Shown: piece by piece, positions 2,462 to 42,649 of the stretch
Layout of the letters: each line of letters opens with the position of its first letter
How positions within the stretch are numbered: the stretch's first letter is position 1
Assembly (NCBI GenBank): GCA_016937255.1
Contig: JAFGWG010000039.1
Coordinates: forward strand, 1-42,649
Direction of reading: 5' to 3'
Origin: Bacteroidales bacterium
GTDB lineage: Bacteria; Bacteroidota; Bacteroidia; Bacteroidales; DTU049
DNA: 42,649 bases
Notes under the pieces: model-generated
Database searches by the model: none
What the model was told of the DNA's origin: nothing
What the model saw: only the letters and a program-made list of their open reading frames with translations
Position numbers and translations under genes: made by a program

Positions 2462-3109
2462 TTAATACTTCACCACAACGCCCAAATCCATTCCTTTGAT
2501 GATCTCGGTTAGGGTGCCTTTTATTTCAACCACATTGTCGGCCGTTTTTCTGGCCCTACCGTTTTTCTTGATTTTCTTAACAGGTGAAGGCGTTTCAATT
2601 ATGGTTCTGACATTAATAAACGATGTTGCTTCCGTTCCCATAAAAGACTGAGTAAAGAATTCATTGTCGCTTTTTTCTATAGCTCTGGCCACCATAGGTT
2701 GAATATTGGTTCTTTTGAAGCGATGTTTGCCCACTTTCATATAATTGGGCACAATGAAGCCGTATTTCATTCCAGCAAGTTTCAGCAAAGCACGTTTAAA
2801 AGCACTATGGTTCTGAAAATGAAATGAAACTTGATACAAACCGGCTTTTTCATCAGAGCTTGATTTTATATCTGAAATACCACTTACATCTTTCACAGCT
2901 TCGCTAATAAACTGTGGGAATGTCAATAGCTCTTCAGGGACATCAAATTCGCCGGCACCCATAGATGACAAGGCACTCATGTCTAATTTCAGAGAGTATT
3001 CACCACTTTTATCAGAATTAATAGTGATTTTTTCTTCAAGCTCAATGCAGGACTGAAAAAGCAGACCTGTGAGCAGAATGATCGGAAGGAATTTACTGAA
3101 TGATCGCAT
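2462..3109 (-). CDS. Hypothetical lipoprotein
   Basis: A 215-residue protein of unrecognised family. The first 21 residues are a lipoprotein signal ending in LLFQSC, so the mature protein should be anchored through Cys21 in the cell envelope. A segment at about 24-45 (ELEEKITINSDKSGEYSLKL) is a beta-rich start seen in Bacteroidota lipoproteins of unknown role. No catalytic motif is visible. Its ATG lies inside the end of the DUF4197 gene (17-base overlap), which indicates translational coupling and probably a shared envelope process. Confidence 0.75.
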   Translation of the reverse strand: MRSFSKFLPIILLTGLLFQSCIELEEKITINSDKSGEYSLKLDMSALSSMGAGEFDVPEELLTFPQFISEAVKDVSGISDIKSSSDEKAGLYQVSFHFQNHSAFKRALLKLAGMKYGFIVPNYMKVGKHRFKRTNIQPMVARAIEKSDNEFFTQSFMGTEATSFINVRTIIETPSPVKKIKKNGRARKTADNVVEIKGTLTEIIKGMDLGVVVKY

Positions 3110-9813: not shown

Positions 9814-9878
9814 TTATGAGTTGTTTTTAAGTGAAACTACTTAGTTGAGCTTGAATAGTTTTCTTTCTAACTGCTTTT

Positions 9879-10062
9879 ATTGGTTGACGAACTCTTGTCC
9901 GGCCTAACGTGCATAAATAGCCGGACTAAGACTTGTCAACCACGATTCCTAGCACCAGCGAAGCGAGGTGAATACAGCATCTGCGGAGCGAGAGCTGGCT
10001 TGTCGGCTCGCAGCTCATCTGCTTAAATTTAGTAATCTGAGTAATTTGAGTTCATCTGCGGA
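9879..10062 (+). repeat. 184-bp structured dispersed repeat, copy A
   Basis: This copy aligns with 17341-17524 over 184 bases without indels and with about 22 differences. It starts with a long hairpin: GGTTGAC pairs with GTCAACC and GTCCGGC with GCCGGAC, around a variable 15-base loop where 9 of the differences fall. A CACC...GGTG hairpin follows, then a GAGCGAG...CTCGCaGCTC inverted repeat, and the copy ends in a 30-base tail (AATCTG...ATCTGCGGA) that is itself repeated elsewhere. It fills the 387-bp space between the divergent cysteine synthase and M90 genes. It resembles a structured RNA or REP-like element; its function is unknown. Confidence 0.8.
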
Positions 10063-10159: not shown

Positions 10160-11035
10160 ATGGAGTACATAATAGTTCCCGTTGTTTTTATTTTGATATA
10201 TCTTGCAATAAGAGCGGTTTGGCGGAAAAAGAAGTGGCATGAGCCCAATACGCCATTTCCATCAAGCTGGCGAGTTGAACTCACACAGCATATTGCATTT
10301 TACAATAGCCTTAACCCCGAAGAAAAAAAGCTCTTCGAATATGAAGTTCAGGAGTTTTTACTCAACTGCAAAATTACTCCGGTAGAAACCGAGATTAATC
10401 TTACCGACAAACTAATGGTTGCCTCAAGTGCAGTCATTCCCATTTTCGCATTCCCCGACTGGAAGTATTACAATCTGCAGGAGGTGCTGGTATATGAAGG
10501 CAATTTCGATGAAGGATTTCAAACCGAAAGCACGGAGAATCATATTATGGGCATGGTGGGCACCGGCTATATGGAAGGCAAAATGATCCTTTCAAAAACC
10601 GCATTAGAGAAAGGCTTTAGCAATGCTTCAGACAAAGGAAACACCGCCATTCATGAGTTTATTCACCTCATTGATAAAATGGACGGTGCCACCGACGGCA
10701 TTCCCGAACTGCTACTTGACAAGCAATATATTATTCCCTGGCTAAATATCATTCACAAGGAAATTGACAATATCTGGGAAAATAAATCCGACATCAATCC
10801 TTACGGAGGCACCAGCCCAACCGAATTTCTGGCCGTGGCCGGTGAGTATTTTTTCGAAAAAGCACACCTCATGGAAGAAAAACATCCGGAATTGTATAAA
10901 ATGATGGAAATGATGTTCCGCCAGAAGATGGATAAGCGAAAATTGCAGTTGAAAAGCGCAGATGTGGGCCGAAATGCTCCGTGCCCTTGCGGAAGCGGGA
11001 AGAAGTATAAATATTGCTGTGGGGGGAATGGGTAA
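10160..11035 (+). CDS. M90 (MtfA-like) zinc peptidase with C-terminal SEC-C motif
   Basis: A 291-residue membrane-anchored metalloprotease-like protein. A single hydrophobic helix (residues 3-20) is followed by the MtfA/M90 domain with HEFIH at 165-169 (two zinc ligands and the catalytic Glu). A PTEFLAVAGEYFF segment near 220-232 supplies the third ligand, and a SEC-C zinc finger ([16 protein letters not shown]) occupies 272-287. E. coli MtfA binds the Mlc repressor and has aminopeptidase activity; the SEC-C tail is an addition common in Bacteroidota. The ATG at 10160 is chosen because the upstream open frame comes from repeat DNA. A diverged second copy of its 3' end lies at 12180-12319, so this 3' end may have been exchanged. 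Confidence 0.88.
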   Translation: MEYIIVPVVFILIYLAIRAVWRKKKWHEPNTPFPSSWRVELTQHIAFYNSLNPEEKKLFEYEVQEFLLNCKITPVETEINLTDKLMVASSAVIPIFAFPDWKYYNLQEVLVYEGNFDEGFQTESTENHIMGMVGTGYMEGKMILSKTALEKGFSNASDKGNTAIHEFIHLIDKMDGATDGIPELLLDKQYIIPWLNIIHKEIDNIWENKSDINPYGGTSPTEFLAVAGEYFFEKAHLMEEKHPELYKMMEMMFRQKMDKRKLQLKSADVGRNAPCPCGSGKKYKYCCGGNG

Positions 11036-11094
11036 ACTGCCTTTTCCCTCCTTTGCGCATTGGCTGCTTGTATCGTTCTTAGCTTATTACTCTT

Positions 11095-12113
11095 TTAATC
11101 ATCATTCAGTTGCTTTTCTATTAATGCTTTCAACTCTTCTTTTTTCGGCAAATAAAATTGGTACTTTGATACAAAAAGCTGAGAATTCACCCTATTCATC
11201 GCATATTTTACAAGTAATTCGTCTTTGTTTCTCGATAAAACTATTCCAATAGGAGGATTGTCATCCTCTGTATTTTCCTCATTTTCAAAATACCCCATAT
11301 ACATGTTCATCTGGCCTACATCTTCATAACCAACCTCTTCTTTTTTCAGGTCAATTAATACGAAGCATTTTAGAATTCGATGATAAAAAACCAAATCGAC
11401 TCTGAAATGTCTGTTTCCAAGCGTGATCCTATATTGTCTTCCAATAAAAGCAAAGCCTTTTCCGAGTTCTAAAAGAAATTGTTGTAAACTATCAATTATT
11501 CGGGATTCAAGTTCACTTTCACTCAGGCTGTATGGTTCGGGGATTTGTAGAAAATCTAATACATAAGGCTCTCTAATAATGTCTTCTGGTTTTTCTACAA
11601 TTTGTCCTTTTTTTGATAAGGCAAAGATTTCGTCTTTATTTTTAGAAGCAGCTATACGTAAAAATAACGATGTTTTCTTTTGTCTTATTAGTTCTCTGAT
11701 AGACCAATTTTCAATTATGCTTTGTTTTTCATAAAAACTTCGTTCTAATTGGTCATCAATTTTAAGGAGTTCAACATAATGAGACCAACTCAATTGGTGC
11801 GACAGTGTCGCACTATTTGAATATTCATTGTAAAATTGTCTCATTCTTTTTACATTACTTAAACTAAAACCTTTCAAAGCAATGATAAATCTTTTGATAA
11901 TCTTTCTAAAAGACCACTTCCATACTCAGCTTTTTCTTGTCCTTTTTGCTCGAACCTAACAATATGTTCGCCAACTTTCCAATAAGTATTTACCAACTCC
12001 GTATTGACAGCACTTACTGTGTTTTGTTTTCCTGTTAAATACGTTTGAGAGATTTGAGAAATCAAACCACTATAGTCATTTGAAACTATCTTTATGTCAT
12101 TTGATTTTGTCAT
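11095..12113 (-). pseudogene. DUF1016 / YhcG-like PDDEXK nuclease, split by a frameshift
   Basis: Two abutting frames encode one protein. The 79-residue N-terminal part (11874-12113) holds the DUF1016 N-domain and runs through YGSGLLERLSKDLS. The 260-residue second part (11095-11877) resumes at KGFSLSNVKRMRQFY and carries the nuclease core with FRVDLVFYH and VLIDLKKEE (the D...D/E-x-K pattern) and QMNMYMGYF. Family proteins are continuous here, so one base was probably lost near 11880-11887; a TTGA overlap would allow weak coupled restart. YhcG-like proteins are putative nucleases of accessory regions. The gene lies antisense between the M90 peptidase and a duplicate of that gene's 3' end. 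Confidence 0.85.
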
Positions 12114-12138
12114 AGACTTCTATTTGAAAGTTAATTCT

Positions 12139-12146
12139 CAAAATTA
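12139..12146 (-). promoter_or_regulatory. -7 box for the DUF1016 gene
   Basis: TAATTTTG on the minus strand, 25 bases upstream of the ATG at 12113, fits TAnnTTTG. The -33 position has no exact TTTG. Confidence 0.4.
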
Positions 12147-12179
12147 CTGTTTTAAATTAAACTGGCTCCTGATCCTAAA

Positions 12180-12319
12180 GGAAATTATACAAAATGATGT
12201 TCCGACAGAAAATGGATAAGCGAAAATTGCAGTTGAAAAGTGCAGATGTGGGCCGAAACGCACCATGCCCGTGTGGAAGTGGGAAGAAGTATAAGCGTTG
12301 TTGCGGGAGAAAAGCGTAA
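12180..12319 (+). pseudogene. Stranded second copy of the M90 peptidase 3' end (SEC-C tail)
   Basis: This stretch repeats the end of the M90 gene (10888-11035), lacking 9 bases near its start. From the ATG at 12194 the frame is open for 41 codons to TAA and encodes an intact SEC-C finger ([16 protein letters not shown]). Against the first copy, 12 codons differ synonymously and 4 differ in amino acid, all four within the last 8 codons; the first 34 codons have 10 differences, all silent. The copy therefore evolved under protein-level constraint and was later cut off. An in-frame stop (TAA, 12176-12178) precedes it. A functional mini-protein is possible but no good start signal is visible. Confidence 0.85.
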
Positions 12320-12363
12320 GCTAACCCGGGTTTTCATGACCCTTCCGGACCTCTAATCAATTG

Positions 12364-13479
12364 CTATATCCTGACAAATTCCCTGAAATTATTCCTGTCA
12401 ATTGTAGTTCCGGTAGCATTATAGACATCTAAAAATTTTTGCGGGAACTTGCTCTTTTTGTCTTTCCACTTGAATTCGTAAGCAAAGATTTCTCCGTCTT
12501 TTTCTTCAACAAAATCTATTTCCTGCTGTTGTTGCGTTCTCCAGAAAAAAACTCTGGCAAATGTGTCTTTGTATAAATTTTGTTTTTTTCTTTCGGCAAT
12601 AAGAAAATTCTCCCACAGTGCACCTTTGTCAAGTCTTAGGTTAAGCGATTTGAAATCACCAATAATCATATTTCTTACTCCATTATCCCAAAAATATATT
12701 TTACGGTTTTGCTTGATTTCATTTCTAAGATTTCGACTAAAACTATTAAGACGAAAAATGATGTATCCTTTTTCCAAAATATCAATATAATTCTGCACCG
12801 TTATTTTATTGATTTTAAGGAGTTTTGACAACTCATTGTAATTCACCTCACTTCCCGTTTGCAAAGCCAATGCAAGCAATAATTGTTCAAGAATTTCCGG
12901 CTTTCTGATATCTGAAAAAGCCAGCAAATCTCTATATAAATAGCTGTTTACAAGGTTTTTTAGCGTTTCGCGTTCATTCCCCTGATTATTAAGTACTTCT
13001 GGATAAAATCCATATAGCAGGCGGTTTTCAACTTGCTGTTCTGCTTTTACAAATCCTATGCTGTTTTCATATTCTTCCCATGAAACAGGAAACAATTCAT
13101 ATGCCCATTTTCTGCCTGTTAAAGGTTCATTAAGTGCATTCCCCAGATCGAAAGAAGAAGAACCGCTTACAAACAACTGAACATCTTTAAATTGGTCGGT
13201 AATTATTTTCAATGTCAACCCTATCCCTGATATTCTCTGAGCTTCATCAAGAAATACATATTTATGATCTCCGATTATTGTTCTTATCTGCTCTGTAGTT
13301 GGATTTTGCAACAAAGCTCTTGTTGTCGGGTCATCTGCATCCAAAAACAAATAGTCCTTGTCTTCAAGTATCTTTTTCAGAAGCGTGGTTTTGCCTACCT
13401 GTCTTGCTCCTGCAACGATTATGGCTTTTCCGCTGCCAAACTTTGCCTTAATGACATTTTCAATTGTTCTTTCAAACAT
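12364..13479 (-). CDS. AAA+ ATPase with DUF4143 domain
   Basis: A 371-residue protein of the ATPase family common in accessory regions of Bacteroidota. Walker A is GARQVGKTT (24-32) and Walker B is YVFLDEAQ (74-81). LFVSGSSSFDLG follows as sensor 1, then the GRKWAYELFPVSWEEY motif. A winged-helix-like middle (LLKINKITVQNYIDILEKGYI) and a C-terminal DUF4143 region end the protein; the latter has WRTQQQQEIDFV...YEFKWK, a PD-(D/E)xK-like pattern. The role is unknown; nuclease or toxin-related functions have been proposed. The ATG at 13479 is favoured because an ideal promoter lies directly upstream of it. Confidence 0.88.
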   Translation of the reverse strand: MFERTIENVIKAKFGSGKAIIVAGARQVGKTTLLKKILEDKDYLFLDADDPTTRALLQNPTTEQIRTIIGDHKYVFLDEAQRISGIGLTLKIITDQFKDVQLFVSGSSSFDLGNALNEPLTGRKWAYELFPVSWEEYENSIGFVKAEQQVENRLLYGFYPEVLNNQGNERETLKNLVNSYLYRDLLAFSDIRKPEILEQLLLALALQTGSEVNYNELSKLLKINKITVQNYIDILEKGYIIFRLNSFSRNLRNEIKQNRKIYFWDNGVRNMIIGDFKSLNLRLDKGALWENFLIAERKKQNLYKDTFARVFFWRTQQQQEIDFVEEKDGEIFAYEFKWKDKKSKFPQKFLDVYNATGTTIDRNNFREFVRI

Positions 13480-13490
13480 TTTTTTGATTT

Positions 13491-13522
13491 CAAAGATAAA
13501 ATTAATTATTATACTGACCAAA
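13491..13522 (-). promoter_or_regulatory. Promoter of the DUF4143 ATPase
   Basis: The minus strand shows TTTG, 20 bases, then TATCTTTG, a full match to the Bacteroidota consensus. The ATG at 13479 is 11 bases after the -7 box, giving a very short leader. This promoter lies inside the longer open frame, which would begin at 13521, and so excludes that start. Confidence 0.7.
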
Positions 13523-17308: not shown

Positions 17309-17340
17309 TTTTGGTTGGTTAGCTTGCCGGTAAGTTTATT

Positions 17341-17524
17341 ATTGGTTGACGAACTCTTGTCCGGCTCTGTGTGCGCATTTAGCCGGACGAAGACTTGTCA
17401 ACCACAATTCGCAGCACCAGCGAAGCGCGGTGCAGACACTATCTGCGGAGCGAGAGCTGGCTTGCCGGCTCGCAGCTCATCTGCTTAAATTTAATAATCT
17501 GTGTAATTTGAGTTAATCTGCGGA
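17341..17524 (+). repeat. 184-bp structured dispersed repeat, copy B
   Basis: Second copy of the element at 9879-10062, same orientation and length. The stems GGTTGAC/GTCAACC, GTCCGGC/GCCGGAC and CACC/GGTG are preserved while the first loop differs at 9 of 15 bases. It ends 34 bases before the radical SAM ATG. With the GAGACG element it accounts for most of the 442-bp space between the lipoprotein and radical SAM genes; its last bases contain the TTTG that could act as -33 for that gene. Confidence 0.8.
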
Positions 17525-17540: not shown

Positions 17541-17558
17541 TTCTGAAATAGATTGACG

Positions 17559-18854
17559 ATGCACGAGAAAGAAGAACACCCAACCCAAGTTCCATATATG
17601 CTTTTTGCGGATACGGAAGGTCAGATTTACGATCATCCCGAATACCAGTGCGTAGGGCGCAGCGGGAAAGATACCGTAGAATTAAAGCCCGAAGATTTCA
17701 TTCCCTTACCGGAAGGAACCGATATCTTTTTTCTGCCCGAGCGTAAAGCGCTAGGGTTAAATCCTGAGAGCCAAGAAATAGAGGAACTTGAAGATGAATT
17801 TGCTGTGGCAGCTTTTGTGTCTCCGGCGCATACGCAAACTTATCTTTCAGCCTACCAAACCTCTTCTTCGCGAAAAAGCAAATTGCCTCTTTTTGCTTAT
17901 GCTGCTGTTGGCTGGCTCGACGATAGATTTTGGGTTACCGCCACTCGTGTAGATCCGGATATACGGCAGGATTGCGATCAGTTTGATCAAAAGGTCGTAA
18001 AGAATAATTTCAAATATCTAAGTAAAAAATGGCCTGAAAATCGGCTTTTACAACATATCGGACATTGTGCCACGGTGTATTTTTGTCCGGCAGCGCGAAA
18101 TTTCTTTCAATATCGTTGGGAAGCGCCTCTGCCGACTGCTCCAAAATGCAATGCACGTTGCATCGGCTGTATTTCGTGGCAACCTAAATCTACCGGAGTT
18201 ACTTCACCACAAAACCGTATTGATTTTGTCCCTTCACCCGAAGAGATTGCACAAATTGCTGTAGCTCATTTGAACAGAGCCCCAAATCCCATTGTGAGTT
18301 TTGGACAAGGTTGTGAAGGCGAGCCATTAATGGTTTGGGAAACTTTATTGGAAGCGGTGAAGCTTATTCGCAAACAGACGACAAAAGGTATTATTAACCT
18401 CAACACCAATGCAAGCAAGCCTGAAGCCATTGATGAGCTTTGTGCCAACGGGCTCGACAGTATTCGCATCAGCATGAATTCGGCACAAAAAGACATTTAC
18501 AATGCGTATTATCGTCCGGTGGATTATTCATTTGAAGACTTATTGCAAAGCTGCAAAAATGCCCGCAAGCATAATGCATGGGTTTCGCTGAACTATTTTG
18601 TTTTTCCCGGTTTTAACGATTGCGATGCTGAAGAACAGGCCTTAACGAATTTCATTTCTGAAGGAAATCCCACCATGATTCAATGGCGCAATTTCAATAT
18701 TGATCCGGAATGGTATGCCTCACTTTTTGAAACCGCTCCCAAAGCCATGGGCATCAAGAATTACATGCAGCGGATTCGTGAAAAATTCCCTCATTTATAT
18801 CATGGCTATTTCAATCCGGGCGAGGAGATTATACAAAAATTCTTAGAGAGATAG
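17559..18854 (+). CDS. Radical SAM protein of unknown substrate
   Basis: A 431-residue radical SAM enzyme. The [4Fe-4S] cluster motif is CNARCIGC (Cys197, Cys201, Cys204; Cx3Cx2C), followed by SFGQGCEGEPL (GGE-like SAM contact) and INLNTNAS. DSIRISMNSAQ completes the partial TIM barrel. An unusual ~190-residue N-terminal extension with GHCATVYFCPAARNFF precedes the core; I do not recognise it. No peptide substrate or partner is adjacent. The ATG at 17559 is preferred over the TTG two codons earlier. A decayed copy of its last ~20 codons lies at 20199-20269 beyond the ATPase gene. Confidence 0.85.
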   Translation: MHEKEEHPTQVPYMLFADTEGQIYDHPEYQCVGRSGKDTVELKPEDFIPLPEGTDIFFLPERKALGLNPESQEIEELEDEFAVAAFVSPAHTQTYLSAYQTSSSRKSKLPLFAYAAVGWLDDRFWVTATRVDPDIRQDCDQFDQKVVKNNFKYLSKKWPENRLLQHIGHCATVYFCPAARNFFQYRWEAPLPTAPKCNARCIGCISWQPKSTGVTSPQNRIDFVPSPEEIAQIAVAHLNRAPNPIVSFGQGCEGEPLMVWETLLEAVKLIRKQTTKGIINLNTNASKPEAIDELCANGLDSIRISMNSAQKDIYNAYYRPVDYSFEDLLQSCKNARKHNAWVSLNYFVFPGFNDCDAEEQALTNFISEGNPTMIQWRNFNIDPEWYASLFETAPKAMGIKNYMQRIREKFPHLYHGYFNPGEEIIQKFLER

Positions 18855-18950
18855 TGAAAATTCTTTTCGCAAAAACAGCTTAAACTCGTCAGTGTATTGA
18901 TTGATATATAAGATAAATATGTCATTGCATTGATTGATTATGTAATAATA

Positions 18951-18982
18951 TTTGTAATCGCATTGATTATTTCGTATCTTTG
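18951..18982 (+). promoter_or_regulatory. Promoter of the second DUF4143-type ATPase
   Basis: TTTG (18951-18954), 20 bases, then TATCTTTG (18975-18982): the same arrangement and spacing as the promoter at 13491-13522. It lies 19 bases before the ATG at 19002 and within the longer frame that opens at 18930. Confidence 0.7.
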
Positions 18983-19001
18983 TAAATCAATATCTAATAA
19001 G

Positions 19002-20192
19002 ATGGAAGAACTATTTCGGGGTTTTTATGAGAAATACAACTGGACGAAAACCACACATGTTCGGGAATTCATTCATGAAATTGATTGGAATGATAGGTTA
19101 ATAGGAATAAAGGGAAGTCGTGGAGTAGGGAAAACGACATTAATGCTTCAATATATAAAGAAGCACTTCAATGCAGGAAAAGAAGTTTTGTATGTAAGTC
19201 TTGATCATTTGTTTTTCACAGAGAATACTCTTTATGAATTGGCTGGTAAATTTTACAGGCAGGGAGGTGTTTTACTAGCTTTGGATGAAGTTCATAAGTA
19301 TGCAGAATGGGCAAGGGAATTGAAGAATATTTACGATGATTTTCCCGAATTAAAGATTGTATTTACTGGGTCATCTCTACTGCATATCAGACAGGCAAAG
19401 GTTGATTTGAGTCGTCGGGCTGTCATATATGAAATGCCAGGCTTGTCTTTTCGGGAATTTTTGCTTTTTGAAACCAATGTGAATTATGGGGAGCACACAT
19501 TGGAAGAAATTTTAACAAATCATATTGACATTAGTCTCAATATTAGTTCGCGTTTTAAGCCTTTGCAATATTTTGAAGAGTATCTCAAATTCGGCTACTA
19601 TCCGTTTTTCATGGAGAATAAAAAAACATTTTATCACCGATTAAATGAGATTATTTTGACCATTCTTGAAATTGATATTCCTGTGTTTTCAAATATTTCT
19701 ACTCATAACATAGTCTATTTGAAAAAGTTACTTCGAATTCTGAGCAGATCGGTACCATTTAAACCTAATTTCTCAAATCTGAGTAGCCGTACTGGGATTA
19801 GTATCAATACCTTGAAATCGTATATACAATTGCTTCAAGATGCACAGCTGATCAAACTACTGCATGTGGATGAAGCCGGAATCAACAGTCTCAATAAGCC
19901 CGAGAAAATTTACCTTGATAATTCCGCACTAATGTTTGCACTTGGCGATGAAAATTTAAATATTGGAAACAATCGGGAGACCTTTTTTCTCAACCAAACA
20001 GCCGTAAACTACAAGGTCTTGGCTTCAGAAAATGCTGATTTTTTGATAAACGACACTCATTTTGAGTTGGGAGGACCGCACAAAGGCAAAAAACAAATTA
20101 GAAACCTAAAAAGCGCATATATTGTTAAGGATGAGATTGTTGTTGGACATGAAAACACGATACCTTTGTGGATTTTTGGGTTTTTGTATTGA
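19002..20192 (+). CDS. AAA+ ATPase, DUF4143-related
   Basis: A 396-residue ATPase. Walker A is GSRGVGKTT (38-46), Walker B is LLALDEVH (91-98), and VFTGSSLLHI is the sensor 1 strand. MPGLSFREFLLFE follows, and a helix-turn-helix-like stretch (SSRTGISINTLKSYIQLL) precedes the C-terminal domain with KIYLDNSALMFAL and DFLINDTHFELGG. It is a different subgroup from the ATPase at 12364-13479, with which it shares fold order but little sequence. The ATG at 19002 is chosen because a perfect promoter lies just upstream; the longer start would add 24 hydrophobic residues translated from promoter DNA. It separates the radical SAM gene from a remnant of that gene's 3' end. Confidence 0.85.
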   Translation: MEELFRGFYEKYNWTKTTHVREFIHEIDWNDRLIGIKGSRGVGKTTLMLQYIKKHFNAGKEVLYVSLDHLFFTENTLYELAGKFYRQGGVLLALDEVHKYAEWARELKNIYDDFPELKIVFTGSSLLHIRQAKVDLSRRAVIYEMPGLSFREFLLFETNVNYGEHTLEEILTNHIDISLNISSRFKPLQYFEEYLKFGYYPFFMENKKTFYHRLNEIILTILEIDIPVFSNISTHNIVYLKKLLRILSRSVPFKPNFSNLSSRTGISINTLKSYIQLLQDAQLIKLLHVDEAGINSLNKPEKIYLDNSALMFALGDENLNIGNNRETFFLNQTAVNYKVLASENADFLINDTHFELGGPHKGKKQIRNLKSAYIVKDEIVVGHENTIPLWIFGFLY

Positions 20193-20198
20193 TAATGG

Positions 20199-20269
20199 AT
20201 TGCCTTAATTTATACCACGGCTATTTCAATCTGGGATAGGAGATTATTAAACTGTTTTTGAAAGAATAA
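20199..20269 (+). pseudogene. Decayed second copy of the radical SAM gene 3' end
   Basis: About 51 of 70 aligned bases match 18785-18854. With one extra base allowed, the remnant reads LPNLYHGYFNLG, a stop, then EIIKLFLKE; the functional gene ends in FPHLYHGYFNPG, E, then EIIQKFLER. The +1 shift and the GAG-to-TAG change show it is non-functional. It begins 7 bases after the ATPase stop. It parallels the stranded M90 end at 12180-12319. Confidence 0.75.
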
Positions 20270-38965: not shown

Positions 38966-41305
38966 TTAGTGAAGCAGTGTAATATTGCCCATAATTACAT
39001 GATTATTGCCGCTAGGGTCTTGATAGAAAATTCTGTACACAAATGTGCCTTGTGGCAATAATTCACCATTCATTTTACCATCCCATTCAAAAGCAGGATT
39101 TGAAGACACAAATATTAGTGTGCCATATCGATCATAAATGCGAATTGAAAATTTATCGTCTGGCATATTTATGCCACTGATATGGAATTTATCATTATGA
39201 CCGTCTGGCTTATTAGGGGTAAATGCATTTGGAATATAAAGTGTATAATCGGGTCTAACCAATACTGTGCTAAGAATAGTGTCGCTACAGCCAAAAGTAT
39301 TTTCAACATAGAGATATACCTCGTATTCTCCGTATTCATCTTTTGGGAAAGTATGAATAAATTCTGGCACATCATACATGCTGCCATCTTCTAGTATCCA
39401 CTGCCAAATAATGGGGTTGCCCAAAGAATTATCGTAGAAATGGAAAAGTGGATCGAATGAAGATGCTACTGGAGGCTGAGTGAAAAAATCTGCCACTGGA
39501 ATCGGACTTACCACCAAATATACATCTGCTGTTCCTGTACATCCATTGATATCTGTACCTGTTACTGTATAAGTGACATTAGATCCAGGTGTAACAAAAA
39601 GGAGATCATTTACTTCTCCTGGGATGTCATTTAAACTTACATCTGTTGGAGTACTTTCCCAAGAATACAAATCTGCACCACTGGCGCTGAGTTCAACCTC
39701 TTCTCCTGCACAAATACTATCAGGATCTACATCTGCAGTTACAATAGGTAGTGGGTTTACAGTAACGAGAATGGAGTCTGAGCCAACGCAAATATCAGTC
39801 ACGGTAACCGTATATTGACCAGTATTTGATGGAGTAATCGTTATGGTTTGAGTTGTATCACCAGTATTCCACAAATAGCTGAGCCCTTGATTAACTGTTA
39901 ATGTTGCACTTTCTCCGTTACATAATGCAATATCTGGCCCTAAATCTGCAAAGCCATTTCCAACGGTAATGGTTACATCTCCTGTTATATCCTGATTGCA
40001 ATAATCGGTAATTGTAACCGTATAAGTTGTAGTGTTTGCAGGCGAAACGAAATGAGAAGCTAAGGCAGGGAGAGCATTATTCCAATTATAATTATAAGGA
40101 GGGAAGCCCATTGATGGAAATGCATTAATAAATGCACTATCACCACAAATAGTGGTGTCGGGGGACATGACCAAATTCATAAAGTCGTAATCCATAATCT
40201 GGATTATAATAGTATCTGATGTACTGGAACAACCAAGCTGATTGTCAAGCAGAATGATTAACTCTTCAATTCCTTCTGCAAGACCATCACCATAAGGGCT
40301 AATGGTCATACATACAGAGTCGAATCCAGCAGGAATGATCAGACTGTCTGGTAATAATGGGAAATCTACCCCATTGGTTGCAGTACCTCCAATTGTATAA
40401 TTTACAGTGAAAGCGTTTGTGGTGGGATTTGCCAGTGAAAAACAAAGCATAGCATCGTTACAACCAGCTTCCATAGCAAAGCTTCCAATTACAGTGTCAT
40501 TTACATATTGAGTGCTGGCAATAATGGTTGGGCTAGAAAAGGAGTTGGCTCTTAGGAAAACACCTGAATCATAAGATTGATCTCCGGCATCTCCAACAGC
40601 AAGTTTGATATGGTACTGAACACAGGGAGTAACTACCAGCCAGGCAGTTAATACAGTTGTAAAACCATCGTAAACAATAGTTTGGCCATTGATTCCTTCA
40701 TTATCAACGTAATATGTTGAGTTGGAACCTGAATTAACATTGTCGATTGTTACAGGTAGCCCCCCAGGTAAACGGGCAATATTGTAGTTTGTGTATGCTC
40801 CGCCTAAAGGATTTGGTCCTGAAACAAAAAACCCGAATACATCATTAAAACTCGATCCTACCCATTCAGGATATTCTTCTGATCCAAATACAAAATCGAA
40901 ACTAATAGTGTCTGATTCAGGGATAAAGTCGAATTCAATAAAAGTAGCGTCATTGATGGTATAACCAGGAATAAGAGCCTGAAGTTGAGGATCTGAGCCA
41001 CCAGTTGTTATGGAACTTGCAAAATTACTTACAGGACTTCCAATAGCAGGTTGTCCACCAGAACCATTTACATATCCGGAACTCATAACTAACCCAGAAT
41101 CAAGGCCTAGGTTTGTTGGAGTAGCTCCAGTAGAAAAAAGGCCAATAGAATTGACGTCGCCAGTATAGCTAACATTGGAATATGTAACACCAGCTCCTAC
41201 CAGTTCATCAACATATTGAGCTGGAGTAAGCCCAGATATAACACTTAACTGCGCAGTAGAGCTTAAGGATAAAATCAGGATAAAAATGAAGAATAGATAT
41301 TTCAT
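38966..41305 (-). CDS. Choice-of-anchor L surface protein with T9SS type B sorting domain
   Basis: A 779-residue exported protein. Signal peptide 1-19 (ends TAQ). A choice-of-anchor L domain spans about 38-260, with IEFDFIPESDT, FGSEEYPEW and FNDVFGFFVSGPNP. It is followed by a Calx-beta-like module (IGGTATNGVDF, about 305-370), Ig-like/PKD-like repeats opening with acidic Thr-rich strands, and a C-terminal gliding-type sorting domain (IPNAFTPNKPDGHNDKF ... WDGKMNGELLPQGTFVYRI). It is probably a cell-surface or released adhesin. Its paralog lies 11 bases upstream on the same strand. Confidence 0.88.
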   Translation of the reverse strand: MKYLFFIFILILSLSSTAQLSVISGLTPAQYVDELVGAGVTYSNVSYTGDVNSIGLFSTGATPTNLGLDSGLVMSSGYVNGSGGQPAIGSPVSNFASSITTGGSDPQLQALIPGYTINDATFIEFDFIPESDTISFDFVFGSEEYPEWVGSSFNDVFGFFVSGPNPLGGAYTNYNIARLPGGLPVTIDNVNSGSNSTYYVDNEGINGQTIVYDGFTTVLTAWLVVTPCVQYHIKLAVGDAGDQSYDSGVFLRANSFSSPTIIASTQYVNDTVIGSFAMEAGCNDAMLCFSLANPTTNAFTVNYTIGGTATNGVDFPLLPDSLIIPAGFDSVCMTISPYGDGLAEGIEELIILLDNQLGCSSTSDTIIIQIMDYDFMNLVMSPDTTICGDSAFINAFPSMGFPPYNYNWNNALPALASHFVSPANTTTYTVTITDYCNQDITGDVTITVGNGFADLGPDIALCNGESATLTVNQGLSYLWNTGDTTQTITITPSNTGQYTVTVTDICVGSDSILVTVNPLPIVTADVDPDSICAGEEVELSASGADLYSWESTPTDVSLNDIPGEVNDLLFVTPGSNVTYTVTGTDINGCTGTADVYLVVSPIPVADFFTQPPVASSFDPLFHFYDNSLGNPIIWQWILEDGSMYDVPEFIHTFPKDEYGEYEVYLYVENTFGCSDTILSTVLVRPDYTLYIPNAFTPNKPDGHNDKFHISGINMPDDKFSIRIYDRYGTLIFVSSNPAFEWDGKMNGELLPQGTFVYRIFYQDPSGNNHVIMGNITLLH

Positions 41306-41316
41306 AGTGAATAACT

Positions 41317-42649
41317 CTATTTGTTTCTTAATATAGTCAGCGAGCCATGATATTCCTCAGCAGGATGCTCTACTCCCTCGCTGCGCTGAAGAATGTAGTA
41401 ATATGTTCCTTCCGACAAATCGGTTGGACTCCAGTCGTTTGAATAGCTAGTGCTTTCATACACAATAGCTCCCCATCGGTTGTATACGAGAAGTTCTGAA
41501 TTTGGATACATCTCAAGGTTTGGAAAAACAAGATAGTCGTTTTTACCGTCTCCGTTTGGTGTAACTACATTCGTCGTTAAAATGTCACATTCATTGATTA
41601 CTCGAATAGACTTAACGGCAGATTCATTTCCACAGGAGTCTTCAATCGAAACGGTATAAACTGTTGGGATTGAGGGAGAAACTGTTACTTGTTGGTTATT
41701 GCCAAGGCCATTATCCCAAATGAAATCGAAAGGGCCATATCCGCCTGTAAAATCGACTGAAAGCAATGAAAATTCTCCCTCTTCTGCACAAATTATAGTA
41801 TCTCCACTCAGTGTGATATCCATTGGGTCAACATTAGTGATGTAAATTGTAGCGCTTAATGTATCATTGGTACAACTTATTACCTGAGGTATTGAAAGGG
41901 TAATGGTTTCAGTGGGTTCGCTAATAACATCATTTACAGGATTAATATACAGGTAAGTAGTGTCTTCGCCCGCATTAAATGTAACACTGTTGGTGATAGG
42001 ATTTCCAGTTAGATCAGCATAATCGATGCCGTTAATTGCTGTTCCACCAATAATATAATCGATGGTAAATGGGTTGGTAATATCTCCTCCACGGGTAAAA
42101 ATGTAAGTAGCTGCACCGCAACCTTCAACCATGGTTGAGTCAAATGATGATCCTACTGCCGAGATTTCAATAGCCGGTGAGCTGAAACTCTTTGCTTGGA
42201 GAAATACACCGCTATCAAATGCACCGTCCATTACATCAGCAATTGCAATTTTTATATGGTAGGTTTCACATGCAGTAACCAAAGCAGATGCTTCAAGTAC
42301 CGTGGTAAATCCGTCATATTGGATGGTTGTACCTCCAGTATTGTTGCTGTATAATGAGGAGTATGCAAGACTTGTACATACCCCGAGACCAAATGCACCA
42401 GCAACGCCAGGGTTAATAGAGTTAATAGCTACAGCAATATTTGTTCCTGGTATTTTGGCAATATTTTCATTAGTATAAGATCCGCCAGATGGATTAGGAC
42501 CGCTTAGAAAAAATGCAAAAACATCGTTGAACTCAGAGCAAACATACTCAGGATATTCTTCACTGCCAAATACATAGAAAAATCTTACGGTATCTGAGGA
42601 AGGAATAAAATCAAATTCCAATACAGCTGCGTCATAAGTCGTATTACCA
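41317..42649 (-). CDS. Choice-of-anchor L protein with T9SS type B sorting domain (5' end outside window)
   Basis: The open frame runs through the window edge; the visible ~443 residues lack the signal peptide and the start of the domain. Positions near the edge read GNTTYDAAVLEFDFIP, aligning with NDATFIEFDFIP of the downstream paralog. It contains FGSEEYPEY, FNDVFAFFLSGPNP, a Calx-beta-like module (IGGTAINGIDY), one Ig-like unit and the type B sorting domain (VVTPNGDGKND ... SEGTYYYIL). It is the upstream member of a tandem pair with shorter repeats between the anchor domain and the C-terminus. Confidence 0.88.
   Translation of the reverse strand, partial: GNTTYDAAVLEFDFIPSSDTVRFFYVFGSEEYPEYVCSEFNDVFAFFLSGPNPSGGSYTNENIAKIPGTNIAVAINSINPGVAGAFGLGVCTSLAYSSLYSNNTGGTTIQYDGFTTVLEASALVTACETYHIKIAIADVMDGAFDSGVFLQAKSFSSPAIEISAVGSSFDSTMVEGCGAATYIFTRGGDITNPFTIDYIIGGTAINGIDYADLTGNPITNSVTFNAGEDTTYLYINPVNDVISEPTETITLSIPQVISCTNDTLSATIYITNVDPMDITLSGDTIICAEEGEFSLLSVDFTGGYGPFDFIWDNGLGNNQQVTVSPSIPTVYTVSIEDSCGNESAVKSIRVINECDILTTNVVTPNGDGKNDYLVFPNLEMYPNSELLVYNRWGAIVYESTSYSNDWSPTDLSEGTYYYILQRSEGVEHPAEEYHGSLTILRNK

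Follow-up and report, generated by a model that had tools for sequence, protein, structure and literature searches.

How can the end of an ordinary bacterial gene come to stand twice in a chromosome, once joined to its gene and once by itself on the far side of another gene? The question is raised by the first 42,649 nucleotides (nt) of contig JAFGWG010000039.1 of a Bacteroidales bacterium (assembly GCA_016937255.1), a stretch referred to here as the window, in which an M90 metallopeptidase gene is followed by an antisense DUF1016 gene and then by a second, stranded copy of the metallopeptidase gene's own 3' end (Table 1). This arrangement is a real and recurrent scar, and it represents a new form of the known gain of genes by recombination. 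It was probably left when one-sided homologous recombination imported a single accessory gene, here called the cargo, from a relative together with the linked end of the neighbouring gene.

Two copies of one gene end at the M90 locus

The last 42 codons of the M90 gene, stop codon included (10910-11035), align with 12194-12319 over 126 nt without gaps and with 18 mismatches. The 16 codons that differ comprise 12 synonymous and four replacement changes; the replacements fall at codons 35, 39, 40 and 41, and within the first 34 codons the differences, at 10 codons, are all silent. The full repeat is far above chance (E 3e-35 in the window), and by eye the homology extends slightly further upstream, to about 12176, across a 9-nt length difference. 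The DUF1016 gene lies antisense between the copies in two pieces, one of which (11874-12113) corresponds to positions 2-57 of DUF1016_N and the other (11095-11877) to positions 62-137 of the same domain together with YhcG_C (2.3e-58); the frameshift that separates them is either genuine or an assembly error. Its protein has its nearest relative, among the matches listed, at 73% amino acid identity (genome G184). A preliminary description, drawn from the sequence alone, had reported the gapless copy, the predominance of silent changes, the replacements near the end and the frameshifted antisense gene, and each of these was found again at the same positions.

The same description held that the stranded copy came from a working gene and not from a simple recent duplication, and the codon comparison bears this out. 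Under a null in which the stranded copy decays neutrally and the working copy changes only silently, about 68.5% of codon changes are expected to be replacements, and the four replacements beside 12 silent changes in M90 depart strongly from this expectation (P 0.0004). A tree of the SEC-C tails, which had been proposed as a check on the origin of the two copies, was built and proved powerless: none of its five inner branches was supported among eight tails, six of them from other genes. The motif filter behind this tree had kept 6 of 45 collected M90 proteins and was too strict, many more loci having tail matches. The description had also taken a mutual closest relationship of the two copies as the mark of a local tandem duplication. 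The two tails are indeed each other's closest relatives, at about 90% amino acid identity, and other M90 tails (aligned over at least 35 residues) reach at most 59% to them; but because no M90 gene closer than 63% in amino acid sequence to that of the window was found in homologue searches, an end received from a close relative would look identical.

Two other accounts of the locus were rejected. One was a conserved partnership of M90 and DUF1016 genes: among the M90 loci compared, none except that of the window was matched (E <= 1e-4) by the DUF1016 pieces. The other was a site-specific recombinase or a tRNA target: no tRNA was predicted in the window by ARAGORN, and no recombinase gene was noticed between the repeats on reading the window's lists of open reading frames, which was not a systematic search.

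Table 1. Features of the M90 and radical SAM loci of the window, followed by the further cases of a duplicated gene end (pyrD, LOG, Ogt and LarC are shorthand for Pfam families)
Feature	Position (nt) or locus	Strand	Basis or remark
M90 metallopeptidase gene, body and fused working tail, SEC-C motif at the C-terminus	10160..11035	+	PF06167 2.6e-61, PF02810 9e-9; intact open reading frame
Upstream direct repeat: M90 gene end, working copy	10908..11038	+	131 nt, 85.5%; diverged terminal half read as donor-derived
Frameshifted cargo gene, DUF1016/YhcG (PADLOC candidate PDC-S02)	11095..12113	-	Pfam; PADLOC 2.9e-108, larger piece
Downstream direct repeat: M90 gene end, stranded copy	12192..12322	+	alignment; read as original tail
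AAA14-DUF4143 gene (PDC-S01), next after the stranded M90 tail	12364..13521	-	Pfam; PADLOC 7e-159
Radical SAM gene with working 3' end	17553..18854	+	PF04055 8.6e-18
Inserted AAA14-DUF4143 gene (PDC-S01)	18930..20192	+	PF13173 2.4e-29, PF13635 1.7e-6; PADLOC 3.6e-29
Radical SAM gene end, stranded copy	20203..20247	+	repeat search; repeat of 18788-18832, 84%, in-frame stop
DUF6508 gene, this genome	L134		
GH2-type enzyme gene, this genome	L136		5' end
Class II aldolase-type gene, this genome	L137		
pyrD, this genome	L138		
MacB-like permease gene, other genome	L201		
LOG/lysine-decarboxylase-like gene, other genome	L290		
Ogt-type methyltransferase gene, other genome	L331		5' end
LarC-like fragment, other genome	L343		
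Outer-membrane efflux protein gene, other genome	L398		
Twelfth case, with a Fic gene as cargo, this genome	L400 (G000:C114), repeats 1418-1495 and 2742-2819		5' end; 95% identical

Recurrence of the scar beside other cargo genes

A whole-window repeat search revealed a second case 9 kb on from the first, in which an AAA14-DUF4143 gene stands between a radical SAM gene and a stranded copy of that gene's end. The genome carries 18 DUF4143 and three DUF1016 genes, and 16 stretches around other members of these families contained several more cargo genes between direct repeats whose spacing equals one gene length. A strict sign, namely a duplicated end of the neighbouring gene, was accepted for 11 of the 168 cargo genes testable for it (79 + 44 + 45), the M90 and radical SAM cases of the window among them, and a Fic gene adds a twelfth case, in which the neighbour whose 5' end is repeated is an open frame of at least 485 amino acids, truncated where the contig begins. 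Divergence between the paired gene-end repeats is 5-19%, and a distance of 10-183 nt separates the stranded copy from the cargo open reading frame in each of the 12 (700 nt were searched). The target open reading frame at L343 (128 amino acids) may itself be broken, because only the C-terminal third of its family matched.

These counts were reached after pruning by judgement. Before it, gene ends had been flagged by script at 9/79, 3/47, 2/21 and 1/24 genes; those dropped were L139, L182 and L205 (local arrays, or a small open reading frame duplicated in full), L287 and L288, L312 (a tandem array, from the four-helix controls), and L403 and L405 (short and weak). The control figure, 2/111, is given as flagged, without matching pruning, and one of its two matches, L142, is identical with L405, a Fic gene. 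Open reading frames within 1.5 kb of a cargo gene were set aside; 5/111 were flagged there, the DUF1016 gene of the window included.

Flanking direct repeats of any kind (E <= 1e-4) are by themselves a weak indication, since local repeats occur in these genomes and many of the flanking ones are intergenic. They were found at 34 of 128 DUF4143 genes (23/81 in a first sample and 11/47 in a second, subfamily-based one) and at 15 of 46 DUF1016 genes (5/21, 9/24 and the window gene), compared with 3 of 113 size-matched control open reading frames away from cargo (Fisher P 6e-8 and 5e-7, respectively). The first DUF4143 set consisted of all 18 genes of this genome and of regions picked among the strongest matches listed, the second includes L260 (genome G291), which was added in knowledge of the cargo of G291, and the DUF1016 sets were made up of 40 regions picked among the matches listed, two genes of this genome and the window gene. 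For roaming genes of the four-helix-bundle type, the figures were 3/28 in a sample from the order and 0/6 in this genome, and for Fic genes 3/27 in the survey and 4/9 in this genome, with one gene in both samples in each instance.

Some loci of this survey have a structure of their own. At L295 (1448-5362) two DUF4143 genes, and at L383 (1526-5432) three DUF1016-type genes, follow one another, each between direct repeats, which is possibly serial insertion at one site. At L139 (1-696) a tandem array of ~76-nt repeats lies beside a DUF4143 gene, with a stray partial copy on the other side (2024-2063).

Constrained and mosaic divergence of the gene-end repeats

Taken together, the 12 cases have 61 silent codon changes and 39 replacements, and the null of neutral decay is rejected with M90 (P 1e-9) as well as without it (P 3.5e-7), the pool including the cases that prompted the idea. 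Taken singly, M90, L201, L290 and L398 reject it (P below 0.01), L138 (P 0.08) and L331 (P 0.10) are borderline, and the radical SAM case, L134, L136, L137, L343 and L400 give no rejection. Because the null is rejected, both copies were in several cases working ends at the time when most of their differences arose. Three of the 12 repeats are in addition mosaic, with mismatches crowded into the terminal half: 3 interior and 16 terminal in M90 (permutation P 0.002), 2 and 22 in L331 (P below 0.0002), and 1 and 9 in L136 (P 0.011). The reverse gradient at that level was seen in none of the 12. Such a mosaic suggests that gene terminus and cargo arrived together through a crossover inside the repeat, which would produce this pattern, and a later exchange with a cargo-free allele is an unlikely source of it, since the cargo side would offer it no homology. 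A homologous crossover inside the flanking gene is what the mosaics of M90, L331 and L136 point to, and for the other nine cases we infer it.

The divergence bears directly on the competing account that survives best, an insertion with long target duplication, in which some process duplicates a target of ~40-200 bp and the initially identical repeats then drift apart, perhaps aided by exchange between alleles of the working gene. We consider this unlikely, although it would fit the frequent position of repeats near the cargo on both sides (at most 183 nt away on the stranded side in 12/12 cases), the intergenic location of many repeats, the 98% identity of a few of them (L273, and L360 beside a Fic gene) and the occurrence of such a process at restriction-modification genes of Helicobacter pylori, as cited in PMC1643837. 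The constrained divergence, both pooled and in M90, rejects simple duplication followed by decay, and divergence that rises toward the cargo in M90, L331 and L136 is hard to obtain by later exchange. No repeat is 100% identical among those listed (at most two per gene), and repeats that were identical at insertion, as a true duplication would leave them, are not what the gene ends indicate, constraint or mosaic structure being strong in M90, L201, L290, L398 and L331; this comparison covered the gene-end repeats only, several of them uninformative.

Native and newcomer ends at a permease gene

Which of two copies is native can be read at the MacB-like permease gene of genome G107 (L201), which has relatives in 19 of the 20 genomes of its genus, G107 included. 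Fourteen of the 18 congener loci were examined over 1.5 kb downstream, L236, L244 and L245 (wrong open reading frame) and L248 (668 nt downstream only) being set aside at that stage, and the locus of G400 was examined afterwards. Among the 15 examined, G400 is without cargo and G291 alone carries it; the G291 cargo is 83% identical in amino acid sequence and occupies the same place, directly between the permease stop codon and the next gene, and no stranded tail was found in the 7 kb examined there. The eight empty congeners displayed show the permease stop codon, then about 13-22 nt, and then the start of the next gene. In G107, where this downstream gene encodes an outer-membrane efflux protein (OEP) and the far-side junction is visible, it is the stranded tail that retains the native permease-OEP junction, whereas the fused tail has the cargo as its neighbour. 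On the evidence of gene order, the stranded end is the original one and the fused end is new, because the junction of the stranded tail with the downstream gene matches that of the empty congeners. The donor in G107 was probably a near relative, because its fused tail stands, as far as could be measured, no further from the congeners than its stranded tail. For the Ogt case at L331 no empty site was found for comparison, the best other genome in the family of G052 reaching 55% amino acid identity.

The preliminary description had interpreted the M90 locus as the product of an insertion that replaces a gene end, and this interpretation is supported beyond the locus itself: ten further insertions, from two gene families, and one Fic insertion share the architecture, and the sole case with congeners combines a native stranded tail with a newcomer fused tail.

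A proposed route by one-sided recombination

In the course of events that we favour, the donor would have been a related bacterium in which the cargo, with short flanks, already lay beside an orthologous M90 gene. On the gene side, a homologous crossover inside M90 would have replaced the end beyond the crossover with that of the donor, and on the far side the incoming DNA would have been joined close behind the cargo without usable homology, the recipient's own end being kept but cut off. The outcome would be the M90 body, the donor tail, the cargo and the stranded native tail, in that order, and 5' gene ends would be open to the same process. Tail and cargo would have entered the window in one event, with an illegitimate joint on the far side.

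Several observations weigh against this route. The strict sign is only weakly enriched, at 11/168 cargo genes against 2/111 controls (P 0.055), and its cases are concentrated in this genome (6/19 testable cargo genes, against 5/149 in other genomes). The spacing of at most 183 nt in 12/12 cases is tighter than expected for a random illegitimate joint. No sign of constraint is seen in the radical SAM case or at L134, L137, L343 and L400, and it is at most weak at L136, L138 and L331; a mismatch gradient is absent from 9/12 repeats. In G107, the working tail (78-88%) and the stranded tail (71-89%) are alike in their identity to the congeners, which does not discriminate between them. For the M90 locus itself the closest relative found stands at 63% amino acid identity, and donor and polarity are inferred.

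Cargo proteins and the possibility of homing

Both main cargo families are PADLOC phage-defence candidates, and a role in defence here is putative. By hidden Markov model score the cargo proteins of the window are clear members, the frameshifted DUF1016 gene of PDC-S02, through its 260-amino-acid piece, and the two AAA14-DUF4143 genes of PDC-S01 (Table 1). PDC-S01 has been described as a predicted PD-(D/E)XK protein and as ranking fourth in frequency among prokaryotic defence systems, and the relevant passages of that study discuss transfers of PDC-S01 and PDC-S02 between domains and do not take up their mode of insertion (PMC12988326). YhcG_C, identified by Pfam, and DUF4143 are predicted PD-(D/E)XK proteins. 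The DUF4143 proteins, AAA_14 by Pfam, have invariant E334-x-D336 and E349-x-K351 motifs in 17/17 aligned sequences by motif reading, in keeping with the AAA ATPase and PD-(D/E)XK domains expected of PDC-S01. An AlphaFold2 model of the 12364-13521 protein (pLDDT 88.7) has the archaeal ATPase SSO1545 as its best whole-model fold match (E 3.5e-8), and sequence searches of the PDB gave a weak match to a GTPase only for DUF4143 and none for DUF1016.

These predictions open a second alternative, nuclease-driven homing, in which the PD-(D/E)XK nuclease of the cargo cuts a cargo-free allele within the gene end and repair copies in the cargo together with a recoded, uncuttable tail. Besides the predicted character of both families, the architecture speaks for it, as it matches the atp6, atp9, cox2 and nad3 hybrids described for the mORFs of fungal mitochondria (PMC3630166). 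We nevertheless regard homing as quite improbable. The Fic gene at L400, in the same genome, bears the same scar and Fic is not a nuclease, so that the scar is not confined to nuclease cargo. No site specificity is seen, because the target genes are unrelated to one another. The difference from the four-helix-bundle genes is modest for direct repeats (49/174 against 3/34, P 0.01) and similar in direction for strict gene ends (11/168 against 0/34, P 0.12), one four-helix gene being counted twice in the 34. The DUF1016 nuclease as driver of the exchange is a putative role, and we are equally doubtful that PDC-S01 and PDC-S02, both widespread as single-gene candidates, are bacterial counterparts of mORFs. 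As such they would be selfish, cutting the cargo-free allele within the end of a neighbouring gene and being copied into it along with a cut-immune donor end that restores the host gene. If this were true, defence genes would spread by rewriting the ends of housekeeping genes.

Least probable of all is that the stranded tail is the remnant of a neighbouring or tandem M90 paralogue mostly deleted on the arrival of DUF1016, which would account for the constraint on both copies and their divergence of about 15% but requires a separate coincidence for each other gene (pyrD, MacB, LOG-like, Ogt, OEP and so on), leaves the mosaic pattern unexplained and meets with no further M90 body listed for this genome except one, 29% identical, on another contig.

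Neighbouring features of the window

For the DUF4143 gene at 12364-13521, next to the stranded M90 tail, neither a flanking repeat nor a gene-end copy of its own was detected. L134 has the same order as the M90 locus, with gene, new tail, first cargo, old tail and second cargo, and in both this order looks like repeated use of sites. An intergenic repeat of 186 nt (88%) is present at 9877-10062 and 17339-17524, just upstream of the M90 and radical SAM genes, the two genes of the window with stranded ends; a 70-nt part of it recurs in L401 (2755-2824), its only other match in the stretches of this genome that were compared. At the end of the window (40545-42649), two adjoining large surface-protein-like open reading frames have diverged repeats in common (59-66%).

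Comparison with known systems

A diagnostic scar of this kind would allow the direction of an acquisition, the distance of its donor and its crossover point to be read from a single genome. The gain of an accessory gene can leave an ordinary gene with a foreign end, gene trees can be misled by such ends, and orphan gene-end fragments can be native. In the literature searched, nothing was found on the insertion mode of solitary PDC-S01 or PDC-S02 genes, and titles and the starts of abstracts on gene-end duplication with horizontal transfer or long target duplication contained nothing on these families.

Three known systems come close. Insertion with long target duplication was reported for restriction-modification genes in H. 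pylori by Nobusato et al. 2000 (via PMC1643837), and the likeness is that there, as here, a defence-type accessory gene is flanked by long direct repeats taking in sequence of the neighbourhood. The difference is that the gene-end repeats described here have, when pooled, diverged mostly silently and are in some cases mosaic, which points to an imported end, not a duplicated one. One-sided recombination of the kind proposed here is related to homology-facilitated illegitimate recombination, which is documented in competent bacteria (PMC2884548, PMC3240628) and has been proposed for the displaced orphan modules of type VI secretion system and Rhs loci (PMC5361080). As described there, one side is homologous and the other illegitimate, and the displaced old part is kept downstream; the new module is a different effector with its immunity protein, and what is kept is an immunity gene or an orphaned 3' region. 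In our cases, by contrast, old and new ends are homologous and the payload consists of one unrelated gene.

Anatomically, the best match comes from the fungal mitochondrial mORF hybrids, first described for atp6 of Allomyces macrogynus, in which, according to the account in PMC3630166, a gene body is followed by a foreign C-terminus, a nuclease open reading frame and the stranded native C-terminus. The same succession of foreign homologous end, predicted nuclease gene and stranded native end is found here, with native polarity seen in G107 only. The mORF hybrids are organellar and carry homing enzymes of the LAGLIDADG or GIY-YIG type, whereas the scars described here lie in bacterial chromosomes, involve other nuclease families and also affect 5' ends, and homing in their case is hypothetical.

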